64,000 nt of DNA, taken from contig VGVG01000001.1 of assembly GCA_016874055.1 (NCBI GenBank), positions 136,816 to 200,815 of the forward strand, written 5' to 3'. Each line of letters begins with the position of its first letter. Within the stretch, counting starts at the first letter, position 1. The notes beneath the pieces are model-generated. The model did no database searches, was not told the DNA's origin, and was given only the letters and a program-made list of their open reading frames with translations. Positions 6,765 to 37,701 of this stretch are shown one piece after another. The stretch comes from Gammaproteobacteria bacterium. Lineage in GTDB: Bacteria > Pseudomonadota > Gammaproteobacteria > Steroidobacterales > Steroidobacteraceae. A program made the translations under genes and the position numbers.

Positions 6765-7607
6765 ATGAAGTCTCCCTTGATTACCGATCTGCATTTGCAC
6801 AGTCATCACTCAGATGGCCTGCTAACGCCCGAGGCGCTCATCGAGCTTTGTGCTGCGCGCCGCGTAACGTTCGCAGCACTCACCGACCATGACACAGTCG
6901 CGGGCTGCGAGTCCGCACGGCTCGCATGTATCCGTCACGGATTACGATAAGTCACAGGTGTCGAAGTCTCCTGCGGCTGGAACCGTCAGACGCTGCACGT
7001 TGTCGGACTCGATTTCGAACCCAAACATGCTGCGCTCACGTCGCATCTGGCGAATATTCGCGCACGGCGAGCCGCTCGGCTTACCGAGATCGGCGAACGA
7101 CTTGAGCGTGAAGCTGCCTTTGCCGCTCGGTCCCTAGTCAAGGAGATCCTTCAAAGCACCGATGTGCCGACACGAATGCACTTGGCTCGCGCCTTTGTCT
7201 CGGCAGGCCACGTGGGTGACCTTTTGGAGGTCTTTAGCCTATGGTTGTCGCCAGGGACGCCAAGACATGTGCCCGAACAGTGGCCTAGCCTCGCCGAAAC
7301 GGTAACGACGCCACGCGCAGCAGGGGGTCGAGTCGTACTTGCTCATCCGCACCGATATCGACTCTCAGGCAGCGCGTTGCGACGGCTGCTTGGCGAGTTT
7401 CGTGAAGCGGGCGGCGAGGCCATCAAGGTGGCCGTGGCCGGGATTAGACCCTCGGACCTTGACCGTCTGGCCACCTTAGCGCGGAATCTGTGGTTTGCCG
7501 CCTCCACAGGCTCGGATTTCCATGATTCAGCCGTGCCGTGGAATCCCCCGGGATGCTTCGCTAAGCTACCGGCAGATCTTGAACCTCTGGCGGCGCGGCT
7601 CGGATGA
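6765..7607 (+). pseudogene. rnm: PHP-domain phosphoesterase (RNase AM / YciV type), one internal stop
   Basis: The frame encodes a PHP metal-dependent phosphoesterase of the YciV family; in E. coli this is RNase AM, a 5'-3' exonuclease that matures rRNA 5' ends. The metal motif DLHLHSHHSDG and TDHDT are intact, and the second half (VVLAHPHRY, GSDFHDS) is in the same frame. A TAA at 6948-6950 splits them, between HGLR and VTGVEVSCGW, where relatives have one ordinary residue followed by a VPGVEIS-like segment. No other stop or shift lies between 6765 and 7607. Either it is a recent nonsense mutation, a readthrough site, or a sequence error. The stop at 7607 overlaps the next ATG (ATGA). Confidence 0.85.
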
Positions 7608-15173: not shown

Positions 15174-15773
15174 TCAGGGTGCCGGGTTACCGAAATCGAC
15201 GGTAGGCGCCGACGAAATAGCTATTTCGTTTTCGACGGTGAAGTTGGACTTCACCTCGTAACCAAAGACCATCGCCGTGAGATTCGACGGGAACTTGCGA
15301 ATGGTTCCGTTGTAATCCTGAACCGCTGCGATGTAGCGGTTGCGCGCGACGGCGATACGGTTTTCGGTACCCTCCAGCTGCGCCTGCAGGTCACGAAAAT
15401 TTTGATCCGACTTCAGCTGCGGATAGTTTTCGGTGACCATGAGCAGACTCTTGAGCGCCTGCGTCAGCTCGCCCTGTGCTGCCTGATACTTCTGCAGCGC
15501 CGCCGGATCGTTGACGAGCTCCGGAGTCACTTGGATAGACGTCGCACGAGCACGCGCGTCGGTCACGCCGACCAGAACTTTCTCCTCCTGAGCGGCGAAG
15601 CCCTTCACGGTATTGACGAGGTTCGGGATGAGATCGGCACGACGCTGATACTGGTTGACCACCTCGGACCACGACGCCTTGATGGCCTCGTCTTGGGTCT
15701 GGATGGTGTTGTAGCCACAACCCGACAGGCTGAGCGTTGCCACCAGCATGAGTACGGCAAAAATCTTTTTCAT
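15174..15773 (-). CDS. lemA: LemA family lipoprotein
   Basis: LemA proteins are membrane-anchored helical-bundle proteins of poorly known function. The 199-residue product has a lipoprotein signal (MLVATLSLSGC), then the LemA core: YNTIQTQDEAIKASWSEVVN, QYQRRADLIPNLVNTVKGFA, and the ENYPQLKSDQNFRDLQAQLE signature, ending FTVENEIAISSAPTVDFG. The ATG is preceded by a good ribosome site (GAGGAG on the minus strand). It is first in a lemA-TPM-TPM operon, with the damaged M13 peptidase directly upstream on the same strand. Confidence 0.95.
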   Translation of the reverse strand: MKKIFAVLMLVATLSLSGCGYNTIQTQDEAIKASWSEVVNQYQRRADLIPNLVNTVKGFAAQEEKVLVGVTDARARATSIQVTPELVNDPAALQKYQAAQGELTQALKSLLMVTENYPQLKSDQNFRDLQAQLEGTENRIAVARNRYIAAVQDYNGTIRKFPSNLTAMVFGYEVKSNFTVENEIAISSAPTVDFGNPAP

Positions 15774-15815: not shown

Positions 15816-17906
15816 TCACGAAATTTTTACACGCTCATTCGGCTCGCGGTACAGCCGATCGCCCAGTTTAACACCAAAGACTTCATAAAATTCCGTGATA
15901 TTACTGATTCCGTGATATTACTGACGACGCCATTGCATCGATACTCGCTCGGGCTGTGCGAGTCGGTCACCAGACGCATACGCAGTTCATCGTCGCGATA
16001 CTTGCGGCGCCAGATCTGCGCCCAGCCAAGAAAGAAACGCTGCGGGCCGGTGAAGCCGTCGATCACCGGCGCTGGTTTACCGTTGAGCGAGAGCTTGTAG
16101 GCACGGTACGCCACGGCGAGACCTGAGAGGTCACCGATGTTCTCGCCAAGCGTGAGATCGCCGTTGATCGATCGTCGATCGGTTTGAACGCGCTGTATTG
16201 CGCCGACAGACGCCCCGCCCGCTCGCGGAAGCGAGCGTTGTCGTCGAAGGTCCACCAGTCGCGCAGGTTGCCCTCGCCGTCGTAACGACGACCCGAATCA
16301 TCGAAGCCGTGACTGATCTCATGGTCGATCACGCCGCCGATGCCGCCGTAGTTGACCGCATCGTCGACGTTCGGGTCAAAGAATGGCGGTCGCAGGATAG
16401 CTGCCGGGAAGACGATCTCGTTCATCGGCGGGCTGTAGTACGCGTTGACGGTCTGCGGCGTCATACCCCACTCGGTACGATCGACGGGCTTGCCGAGTCG
16501 GTCCATCTGGCGCAGGAATTCAAATTCATTGACCCGCCTCAGATTGCCGAGCAGATCGTCCGGAAGAACCTCAAGCTTGCCGTAGTCGCGCCACTTGTCC
16601 GGATAGCCGACCTTGACCGAGAACGCCGCGAGCTTACGCTTGGCCTCTTCCTTAGGTTTGCGGACCCATCCACTCGAGAGAGTCGATCGATTGCTCGAAT
16701 GCGATGCGCAGATTGGCGACGAGTTCGCGAATACGAATACGGGCCTCCAGCGGGAACGTACGCTCGACGTAAACTCGGCCGGCGATCTCACCGATCGAAC
16801 GATCGATGAGCGTCAAACCGCGGCGCCAACGGGGCTGCTGCGCTTGAACACCACGTAGAGCGCGCTCACGAAAGTCGAAACGTGCCGTGTCATACGCTGC
16901 AGGCAGGAAAGAAGCATTGGCATCGAGCACGCGGAATCGAAAGTATTCGCGCCAAGTGGTCACGGGAGTCGAGCGAACGAGCTCGCCTAGCTGCTTCACA
17001 TAGCTCGGCTGGCGAATATCGAACTCGGTGATCGCCGACGCTTCGGGGCCCAAACCCTCTACGAAGGCCTTCCATCCAAAAGCCGACATGGCGGTGGTCG
17101 CATCGGCGATCGCCGTCCGGTTGTAGGTCTTAACGGGATCGCGATTCTCCACGCGCGTCCAATGCAAACGGGCGATCGAGGTCTCGAGCGCCACGATTCG
17201 CGCAGCCGCTGCCGCAGCCTCTGCCGACCCCGAGAGCGAGAGCAGCTTTTCGGCATACGCAGAGAGATCCGCACGCGCCTTCACGTTGCGTGCGTCGTCG
17301 GTAAGGTAGTACTCACGATCCGGCATCGAGAGACCGCTCTGCGACAAGCCAGCAAGGTAACGGCTGGACTGCCGGCGATCCTGCCCGATGTACGCGCCGA
17401 TCGGCGCACCGATACCGAGGCGCTGCGCGCGACCAAAATAATCAAAGACGTCTTCGGCCGTGTTGAGCGTACCGATACGCGCGAGTTCCGATTCGAGCGG
17501 TGCGATCCCACGCGTCTCGATGGCAGTCGTGTCTACGAAAGCGGTGTAGAAGTCGCCGAGCTTTTGAGCATCGGATCCGGGAGCGCGCTTCGGGTCCGCC
17601 GCAGCGGTTTCGACGAGCTCTCGCAGCGTCGCGAGCGCATCATCCTCAAGTTTGCTGAACGTGCCGTAGTTGGAGCGGTCTGCCGGAATCTCCGTGCGCG
17701 CAAGCTAGGTGCCGCCCGCGAAGCGATACAAATCGTCTTGCGGACGAATGCTGCGATCGAAGCCTTCCAGATCTAGCCCTGAGCGTAACGCGCTCACACC
17801 CGCGGGAGTTGGGACGGTCGCCGCAGAATCGGCGGCTCGCGCATCGGCAGCGAGGGTGGCTCCTGCAGCAACGATCAACGAAAAAAATCCGACGTCGGAT
17901 GTTCAT
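15816..17906 (-). pseudogene. M13 family (neprilysin/PepO-like) metallopeptidase, heavily damaged
   Basis: Stitching three frames gives a full secreted M13 peptidase. It has a signal peptide starting MNIRRRIF, the N-terminal domain, the zinc motif VIDHEISHGFDD, and the C-terminal LGENIGDLSGLAVAY and FFLGWAQIWRRKY blocks. At least five lesions interrupt it. They are an extra base in the T-run after MNIRRRI (near 17880), a TAG at 17705-17707 where relatives have Trp (FAGGT-stop-LARTEIP), an extra T near 16657 after WMGPQT, an indel in a CGAT-rich patch near 16170-16180, and a perfect 17-bp tandem duplication at 15890-15923. No single frame could give active enzyme, so this is a genuine pseudogene. 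Confidence 0.93.
15890..15923. repeat. Perfect 17-bp tandem duplication
   Basis: The 17-base unit ATTCCGTGATATTACTG occurs twice in direct succession (15890-15906 and 15907-15923). It lies in the 3' part of the M13 pseudogene. Seventeen is not a multiple of three, so the second copy shifts the frame; removing one copy restores an FYEVFG-like ending and REPNERVKIS before a TGA at 15816-15818. Confidence 0.95.
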
Positions 17907-24612: not shown

Positions 24613-24886
24613 ATGACGACGATCTACGTAGGCAACTTTTTCTTCTCAGCGACCGAGGTCGACCTTCGTGTGCCTTTTGAGCGATACAGTCAAAGCTGAC
24701 TCCGTGCAATGTATAAGCGATCGTGAGACTGGTCGTCTGTGCGGCTTTGGAGTCGTGCACCTGCCGGGCTCCGAGGCTCAGGCTGCGATCGCGGTACTCA
24801 ACGGCTACGAGATGAACGGGCGAGCTCCGCGCATCAACGAAGCGCAGGAGCGCGAACCGCGTCCAGGCTGCGGGAACCGCTACTGA
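24613..24886 (+). pseudogene. RNA-recognition-motif (RRM) protein, frameshifted
   Basis: The first frame from ATG 24613 reads MTTIYVGNFFFSATEVDLRV followed by PFERYSQS and TGA; the next frame continues ADSVQCISDRETGRLCGFGV and then an RRM-type end (AQAAIAVLNGYEMNGRAPRI). Together they form a small bacterial RRM protein of about 90 residues, with RNP2 at IYVGNF and RNP1 at LCGFGVVHL. One extra A in the AAAGCTGAC context near 24700 breaks the frame. RNP1 and RNP2 also differ from the usual RGFGFV and YVGNLPF, which argues for decay rather than sequence error. Confidence 0.85.
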
Positions 24887-36204: not shown

Positions 36205-36801
36205 GGAGAAAGTTCCCGCAACGTGGACCAGAGTTGGCTAAGTCTACTCGCTACGTCAATGCGGCAGTAGGCTCGAATCGCTTCATTCCTCTATTCGGAG
36301 TTCCGCATGTTTGGGGTCGTACATCTTCTTCCAAAGTACGCCTCGCCAAATTTAACGCTGTGGGTAGGACCCTTGCGCTTGGCGCTATTTCGGTCGGAAG
36401 CCTCGCTCAGCAACTGCCCGCGCTCACCGAGGTCGGCGGGCACTGCAGCTGCAAAACCGGTCGGCGCGGCGGATCCGAACAAGGCCCGCATCGACGCCTC
36501 GACAACTCCATTACGCCCGAAGAGACGGGTAAACGAGATTCCTGCGGCGCCACACCTTCGCTACTGGACCCTGACCGACCGCCGAAAAAGTTTGGCGACC
36601 TGCAGACAAACAATCGCTTTGGCGCATCACTAGTCACTACGATGGCGATGCCAACCGCGGTTAAAGTACGTTGTGGGTTTCCGGGCAGGAACTGGGCGGC
36701 TCGGTGATAGCGTGCGTCCACACCTCAGCTTTCTGGTTATGAATAGGTTTCAGTAATAAGCATTAGTTAGTATTGTATGATAAACACTATTAAGATTTTA
36801 T
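36205..36801. other. Gene-poor, partly AT-rich region with possible gene remnant
   Basis: These 597 bases have no intact gene I can support. In one plus-strand frame (36307-36633) the stretch AADPNKARIDAS...VNEIPAAPHLRYWTL resembles the N-terminal linker of secreted M16 peptidases, and a neighbouring frame carries a short continuation, so a decayed fragment is possible. The resemblance is weak. From about 36730 to 36801 the sequence becomes markedly AT-rich, with TATGAT at 36776-36781 as a possible -10 element for the DUF192 gene. Confidence 0.35.
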
Positions 36802-37284
36802 ATGACTAAAGTCAAAATCGCCACTGCCCTCGCTTTTCTGCTCAGCACGATAAGCGCGATACCGGGGTTTAGTCAGGGCGATCCGGCCCCGCTGTTGTCG
36901 TTTCCGACTAGCACGGTAACGGTCGAAAGTAGCGGGGGTCCGCATCAGTTCGAGGTCTGGATCGCCGATACGCCGGCGCGGCAGGCGCAGGGGTTGATGT
37001 TCGTTCGGGAGTTGCCGAGTTCTCAAGGGATGCTGTTCGTCAACGATCCACCACGGGTCGCCTCGTTTTGGATGCGCAATACCTTCATTCCGCTCGACAT
37101 CCTGTTCATCGATGAGCGAGGTCGAATCGTCGAGATCTTCGCCAACACCACGCCGCTGTCCGACACGCCAATCGGAGCGCGCACCCCCGTTCGTGCCGTG
37201 CTCGAATTACGCGGCGGCGAATCCAAGCGCCGCGGAATCAACAGGGGTGATCGAGTCAAACATCCGGCGTTTCGAAAACGCTAA
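36802..37284 (+). CDS. Exported DUF192 family protein
   Basis: This 160-residue protein has a signal peptide (IATALAFLLSTISAIPGFSQ) and a DUF192 domain. The domain is typical: FEVWIADTPARQAQGLMFVR, SSQGMLFVNDPPRVASFWMR, NTFIPLDILFIDERGRIVEI, and ARTPVRAVLELRGGESKRRG. DUF192 proteins are small beta-barrel proteins of unknown role, usually periplasmic. The AT-rich leader just upstream is likely its promoter. No operon partner is evident on the plus strand. Confidence 0.9.
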   Translation: MTKVKIATALAFLLSTISAIPGFSQGDPAPLLSFPTSTVTVESSGGPHQFEVWIADTPARQAQGLMFVRELPSSQGMLFVNDPPRVASFWMRNTFIPLDILFIDERGRIVEIFANTTPLSDTPIGARTPVRAVLELRGGESKRRGINRGDRVKHPAFRKR

Positions 37285-37452
37285 CCTAATTGTCAGTGTA
37301 GGTAACACTCGCTCGCGATGCTCCAACTGTGAGCGGCCTCGGAGCGGCGGCGCCGTCACGGACGCGGCGCATTACGCCCTGTTTTCGCCGAGTGAGTCCG
37401 CAGCGAGCGCGCACAGCCTCTGATTTGCCGGGTGCTACTGCGACTGCATCGC

Positions 37453-37701
37453 TTAATCGACCCGACTCGTGGACACCCGTTCGAGCTCGCCGCGCTCACT
37501 GACCTGCAGCCGGACCTCGATCGGCCTGCAGCAGACTTGGCAGTCCTCGATATAACTGCGCGACGCATCGGTAAGATCGAGCATGGAACCATAGCGTTCG
37601 CCGCACCAGGGGCACTGCAGTTCGACAAACAGGCCGAGCTCTGACGTCGAGGACTCAACACCACCCGGCTCAAAGACGGGCGCAAGACCTATAGAGTGCA
37701 T
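37453..37701 (-). CDS. CPXCG-motif cysteine-rich small protein
   Basis: This 82-residue protein has two cysteine pairs, LQCPWCGERYGSMLDL and YIEDCQVCCRPIEVRLQV, typical of the small CPXCG family. The four cysteines could bind zinc. The start is uncertain: ATG 37701 gives an N-terminal tail longer than usual. A separate 35-codon minus-strand frame upstream (37670-37777, MHKPGDRSDAGQLMTQVATL onward) overlaps the start by about 32 bases and could be a leader peptide. Function unknown. Confidence 0.8.
   Translation of the reverse strand: MHSIGLAPVFEPGGVESSTSELGLFVELQCPWCGERYGSMLDLTDASRSYIEDCQVCCRPIEVRLQVSERGELERVSTSRVD

Follow-up and report, generated by a model that had tools for sequence, protein, structure and literature searches.

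Short frameshifting indels and premature stops are two of the commonest lesions of Salmonella pseudogenes, and pseudogenes with a single inactivating mutation have been called the youngest (PMC2916853). In a tick Coxiella-like endosymbiont the loss of mismatch repair has been proposed to speed gene loss, and PMC4494066 cites a 50-fold increase in deletion rate. For E. coli lines deficient in mutS, an extract of PMC10292909 gives a structural-variant rate about twice that of the wild type. Here we describe a broken gene for an M13 (neprilysin/PepO-like) metallopeptidase. It shows the same kinds of lesion as the young Salmonella pseudogenes and differs from those described in the PMC2916853 excerpt in that it has five lesions without any excess of amino-acid substitutions. 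As in the tick symbiont, a mismatch-repair gene is lost and there is more gene loss, judged here against the relative G014 only; however, mutSL are gone in the symbiont whereas our genome has a freshly broken mutS and an open mutL (PMC4494066, in part). Also unlike that endosymbiont, the lineage studied here has as its relatives metagenome genomes whose isolate names suggest open water. Among the matches listed in our literature search there was nothing on this locus, on the genus or on an M13 pseudogene in such a bacterium.

The window is the whole 64-kb stretch of DNA that we analysed, C1:136816-200815 of the 1.39-Mb draft genome G000 (29 contigs, 83.65% complete). Scans of the window for tRNA genes and Rfam families found nothing, and neighbouring genes without a Pfam match were named by eye from their translations. 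The gene under study is the following.

15816..17906, minus strand: M13 peptidase pseudogene, with PF01431 in two pieces, placed by frames and homology and by DNA alignment

It runs from an ATG at 17906-17904 to a TGA at 15818-15816. As references we used G014 and G019, which carry close syntenic orthologues with an intact M13 gene, in a three-way DNA alignment with the window. G014 (1.8 Mb) belongs to the same genus and its contig C9 is co-linear with the window over nearly 57 kb with some gaps, while contig C77 of G019 is co-linear across 14 kb. One difference in gene content lies at 36323-37455 of the window, where about 4 kb of G014, with methyltransferase and LysR genes among its content, lacks a counterpart; 36323-36790 resembles decayed sequence. 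The intact G014 orthologue gives full-length matches to both M13 domains (Pfam PF05649 and PF01431), whereas in the window PF01431 matched only as two pieces and no full-length open frame held both domains. Using tblastn with 20 M13 homologues from the genus, family and order we observed that the frame splits at about the same places, with piece ends that differ by some residues; the query L013 gave no last piece. The alignment placed the damage as follows.

17881..17887, minus strand: lesion 1, seven T in a row, against six in G014 and G019
17705..17707, minus strand: lesion 2, TAG where both G014 and G019 have TGG (Trp)
16654, minus strand: lesion 3, one extra T; with most of the 20 queries the tblastn frame changes at 16655/16653
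16171..16172, minus strand: lesion 4, a 4-bp deletion between these bases, from the DNA alignment
15890..15923, minus strand: lesion 5, a 17-bp tandem duplication, CAGTAATATCACGGAAT at 15923-15907 and 15906-15890
16309..16326, minus strand: zinc motif, HEISH kept but preceded by Asp (codon 16326-16324) instead of Gly
15819..15821, minus strand: last sense codon, TCG (Ser), which is TGG (Trp) in both G014 and G019

Thus the gene carries four frameshifts and one nonsense codon, each read from one consensus sequence, against intact syntenic orthologues. All five lesions claimed by the first-pass annotation are present in the sequence and stand out against G014 and G019; the extra T that it put near 16657 is placed at 16654 by the alignment. 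Lesion 1 shifts the frame close to the start of the gene, within a stretch that by eye is signal-peptide-like. The exact place of lesion 4 is ambiguous, as it sits within a GATCGATC repeat (GATC repeat). The frame from the ATG at 17906 ends at 17646 and encodes 86 residues without any M13 domain. Judging from the frame, no part of the M13 catalytic domain would be made in this genome, and the gene cannot be made as one protein.

The M13 zinc motif is HExxH with a conserved Gly before it (VxGHExxH), NAxY/F is the substrate-binding motif, and ENxxD further downstream holds the Glu ligand. HEISH, NAYY and GENIGD can still be read in the window sequence. At the zinc motif the window has VIDHEISHGFDD, against VIGHE in G014 and G019: HEISH is kept, while the Gly has become Asp at a column that is invariant in 31 other M13 sequences. 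NAYYSPP and GENIGD are read in different frames because the 4-bp deletion sits between them. The change beside the zinc motif and the loss of the last Trp are two more damaging changes. We then asked how the window fares at all columns invariant among those 31 sequences (41 loci were tried, 39 had a full frame and 31 were left once duplicates were removed). The window differs at 3/102, the Gly among them, G014 at 1/104 and G019 at 0/103. Since several more distant sequences differ as much or more (up to 12/115), the window's 3/102 is weak evidence alone.

To estimate how long the gene has been dead we ran a three-branch codon model, comparing the window branch with the branches of the relatives, on 14 genes; one antisense ORF (C9:25139) was kept out of the pool. 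M13 has an omega of 0.051 on the window branch, compared with 0.040 for the relatives. When ten neighbours regarded as intact were pooled, the two values were 0.062 and 0.043; their ratio of 1.44 puts the expectation for an intact M13 gene at 0.058. On a coarse grid the M13 interval spans about 0.04 to 0.07, so that at most about 1.3% of the M13 branch was unconstrained, or about 21 neutral substitutions or fewer over 669 codons, with rough branch lengths because synonymous sites are near saturation. When a more distant relative replaced G019 beside G014, the two M13 values were 0.030 and 0.034. Changes unique to the window number 29 nonsynonymous and 118 synonymous in M13, and 202 and 650 in the ten neighbours taken as intact; the M13 substitutions are not error-like. 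A second pseudogene in the window served as a positive control.

24613..24886, plus strand: RRM protein gene, broken by an extra base at 24690 and altered in its RNP1 motif, an older pseudogene

This gene was identified by Pfam PF00076 on the intact G014 copy, and the motif is presumably RNP1. It combines a frameshift with much amino-acid decay and is open in every relative locus where it was found. Its omega was 0.14-0.19 against 0.016-0.029 over four arrangements. For M13, we found no relaxed selection since inactivation, which fits only a very recent loss. Because omega shows no excess over the intact expectation, we conclude that M13 is dead but freshly so, a young pseudogene. Long neutral decay was rejected, with omega at 0.051 against 0.058 expected if intact. 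The first-pass annotation had held that the loss was true and had been tolerated for some time. The several types of lesion, the lack of a second M13 gene in the 84%-complete genome, and a genus in which the gene beside lemA is mostly open bear out the first part; the second finds no support in an omega like that of intact neighbours.

We consider it very probable that this M13 peptidase gene, present as one copy in the 84%-complete genome and dispensable in the genus, has genuinely become a pseudogene, and recently. A gene that can be spared is likely decaying here in the ordinary way, and the loss of mismatch repair may have sped this up. One inactivating change in this lineage would have freed M13 from constraint, and slippage-type indels, the tandem duplication and point changes would then have been added. 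A ribosome starting at the ATG would leave the frame near the start and stop after the 86 residues. Against this reading stand four indels beside an upper bound of about 21 substitutions, and the number of indels per substitution is high though not impossible.

The alternative that survives best, although it is improbable, is a local error of assembly or sequencing (low coverage, a mixture of strains or a bad join at the 17-bp repeat) over a gene that is in truth intact. The genome is a draft in 29 contigs and 84% complete, neither M13 nor mutS shows a signal of relaxed selection, and a tandem repeat can arise from a bad join. One of the lesions lies in the T7 run, and homopolymer errors are warned of as a source of false pseudogenes in Salmonella genomes (PMC2916853, excerpt). 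However, homopolymer errors do not account for a nonsense codon, the loss of 4 bp or a duplication of 17 bp, and the differences of M13 from G014 keep a strong third-position bias (68, 53 and 318). We counted broken genes in a sample of the window's genome. The sample had 121 testable genes (48,446 codons); nine were flagged as broken, of which six were kept after curation by judgement: M13, the RRM gene and the following four.

6765..7607, plus strand: PHP-domain gene, broken by a TAA at 6948-6950, open in G014 and G019
C1:5412-8056 of the genome (L157:5412-8056), outside the window: mutS, broken, in three pieces with stops by TIGR01070
L120:17908-19178 (G000 C3:37908-39178): FAD-binding oxidoreductase-like gene, as we take it to be, broken by a 55-bp deletion with a further 2-bp difference
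L121:6793-8167 (G000 C4): presumed M24-like peptidase gene, broken by two stops and one extra base (frameshift)

The PHP gene was identified by Pfam PF02811 on the intact G014 copy, and the last two were named from their sequence. The unconstrained share of the PHP branch by the same estimate is 1.5% (up to 4.6%). The M13 gene had been described as lying among intact housekeeping genes, which is mostly true, except that the PHP-domain and RRM genes in the window are broken too.

In the reverse test in G014, 4/144 genes were flagged and none was kept. Fisher's test on this difference gives P = 0.008 (6/121 versus 0/144) and, without M13 and mutS, which were left out because their stretches were chosen for breaks, P = 0.04 (4/119 versus 0/144), in a gene sample that is not random, the mutS stretches having been taken because mutS is broken and the window having been the given one. 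An earlier test used hand-curated totals of 6/116 and 0/138. The three G000 rows dropped were C3:21550 (a stop near the natural end), C7:22690 (an over-extended start) and C3:8958 (a codon pattern of 1, 10, 39, antisense-like); all four G014 rows were dropped, three as short ORFs with antisense-like codon patterns and one as an over-extended GreB. Looser earlier runs had also given C3:445 (three stops, short) and C7:34832 (start too early), and in G014 C3:33221 (open from a later start) and C4:6790 (a piece of the broken M24-like gene itself), all of which were dropped. Breaks occur in other drafts too: a frame break was found in 1/25 genes tested in G019, and mutS looks split in G011 and G012. 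As only 6/121 genes were kept as broken, the assembly is not error-ridden in general, and a generally error-rich assembly was rejected. Errors in a badly covered stretch may still affect M13. M13 holds 4/9 of the frameshifting indels counted in the sampled genes (4/10 with the second indel of the FAD gene) in 1.5% of the tested coding length, a clustering with a binomial P of about 6e-6 (about 9e-6), which flatters the case since M13 was chosen for being broken; for three further indels of nine, P = 3e-4.

The neighbouring gene downstream of M13 allowed us to follow the locus across the genus.

15174..15773, minus strand: lemA-like gene, open, 42 bases downstream of M13, adjoining M13 in 15/23 other genomes of the genus

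We take this gene to be lemA. PF01431 was matched in 18 of the 23 other genomes; in 15 the M13 match lies within about 100 bases of lemA, and 14 of these have no stop. The exception, G003 (L066 / L171, G003 C26), has a single TAG in the NAYY motif of an M13 gene that is otherwise open. This is an apparent independent inactivation, read from one nonsense codon in one draft. In G004, G008 and G021 greB and lemA are adjacent with no M13 gene between them, and the three group together in the lemA tree (support 100/99). G004 (98% complete) has no PF01431 match. G008 and G021 carry a different M13 gene elsewhere, 47-48% identical to that of G014, whereas the syntenic copies of G001 and G022 are 71-72% identical to it. 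The G013 match lies at a contig end and is partial. No PF01431 match was obtained in G005, G011, G015 and G017, which were left out of the loss count, lemA being at a contig end or not found. The genus has thus seen at least three independent losses or breaks of M13 (in the window's genome, in G003 and in the G004 group), and therefore M13 is dispensable in it. The check that the first-pass annotation had proposed for another M13 gene found none in the 84%-complete genome; a second M13 gene was rejected on this ground, and the missing 16% could hold one.

The position of lemA also bears on a further explanation, which is very unlikely: that the locus is functional without an enzyme, for example as a transcribed leader for lemA and subsequent genes. 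In the window as well as in G014, lemA follows M13 on the same strand after about 40 bases, so transcription through M13 may feed lemA. However, lemA adjoins greB in G004, G008 and G021, where M13 is missing from the locus, and by eye lemA has its own sequence resembling a ribosome-binding site. Phase variation or programmed frameshifting at the T7 run, which would switch M13 on and off, has a typical switch site in its favour (a homopolymer at the 5' end, where the first frameshift falls), but its chance is negligible and we rejected it as the whole story, because the four further downstream lesions would persist and both relatives have T6 with an open frame.

The broken mutS is of more interest than the M13 pseudogene itself and is our strongest lead. 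Compared with G014 and G019 it has two 1-bp insertions (frameshifts) and a TAG at a position that is a Glu codon in those two. Its omega is 0.066 against 0.074 expected, with at most 0.65% of the branch unconstrained, and we conclude that mutS was broken recently. The mutL gene of G000 has an open frame of 599 codons. With mutS inactivated in this assembly, the lineage may be deficient in mismatch repair. Among the 23 other genomes of the genus mutS is continuous in 17 by TIGR01070; G021 has it in parts on different contigs, in G011 and G012 the split lies inside one contig, G013 has a partial match, and the TIGR01070 search did not find it in G005 and G022.

Loss of mismatch repair raises the rates of short indels and of transitions. 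The loss of mutS may thus have caused or hastened the lesions in M13, and the broken gene in the same genome would be a plausible accelerator of the decay. A 17-bp duplication exceeds the size that mismatch repair handles, so mutS loss cannot explain all the M13 lesions. The RRM pseudogene appears older than the breaks in mutS and M13, which argues that decay began before mutS was lost, so not all the decay in this genome can have started with the loss of mutS.

A broken peptidase gene alone is ordinary. The M13 gene makes a natural case study when taken with the recent break in mutS, the four further broken genes of the sample and the repeated losses in the genus. It poses the question of whether mismatch repair is lost before or after the onset of gene loss in bacteria outside the well-known symbionts, and it shows that judging how old a pseudogene is by its lesion count alone can mislead. 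The closest M13-bearing relatives are genomes from metagenomes, and their isolate names (M_DeepCast_100m, DEBay) suggest that the samples came from a lake and an estuary. The window's bacterium is uncultured, probably aquatic and possibly free-living. A bolder reading, which we hold only tentatively and think unlikely on balance, is that a possibly free-living aquatic lineage was sampled just after the loss of mutS, with genes such as M13 breaking in a mutator-driven reduction. If true, the first steps of mutator-driven genome reduction would be visible before the substitution signal builds up. The genome size is about 1.67 Mb if scaled by completeness; the genus has an unscaled median of 2.4 Mb and a range of 1.4-4.3 Mb. 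G017, also 1.4 Mb, has a continuous mutS, so genomes in this genus can be small without loss of mutS. Separately, we noted that CAMCBU010000027.1 (L071), titled Klebsiella pneumoniae, has 31,325 bases as contig C27 of G007, a genome of the window's genus; its title is probably wrong.
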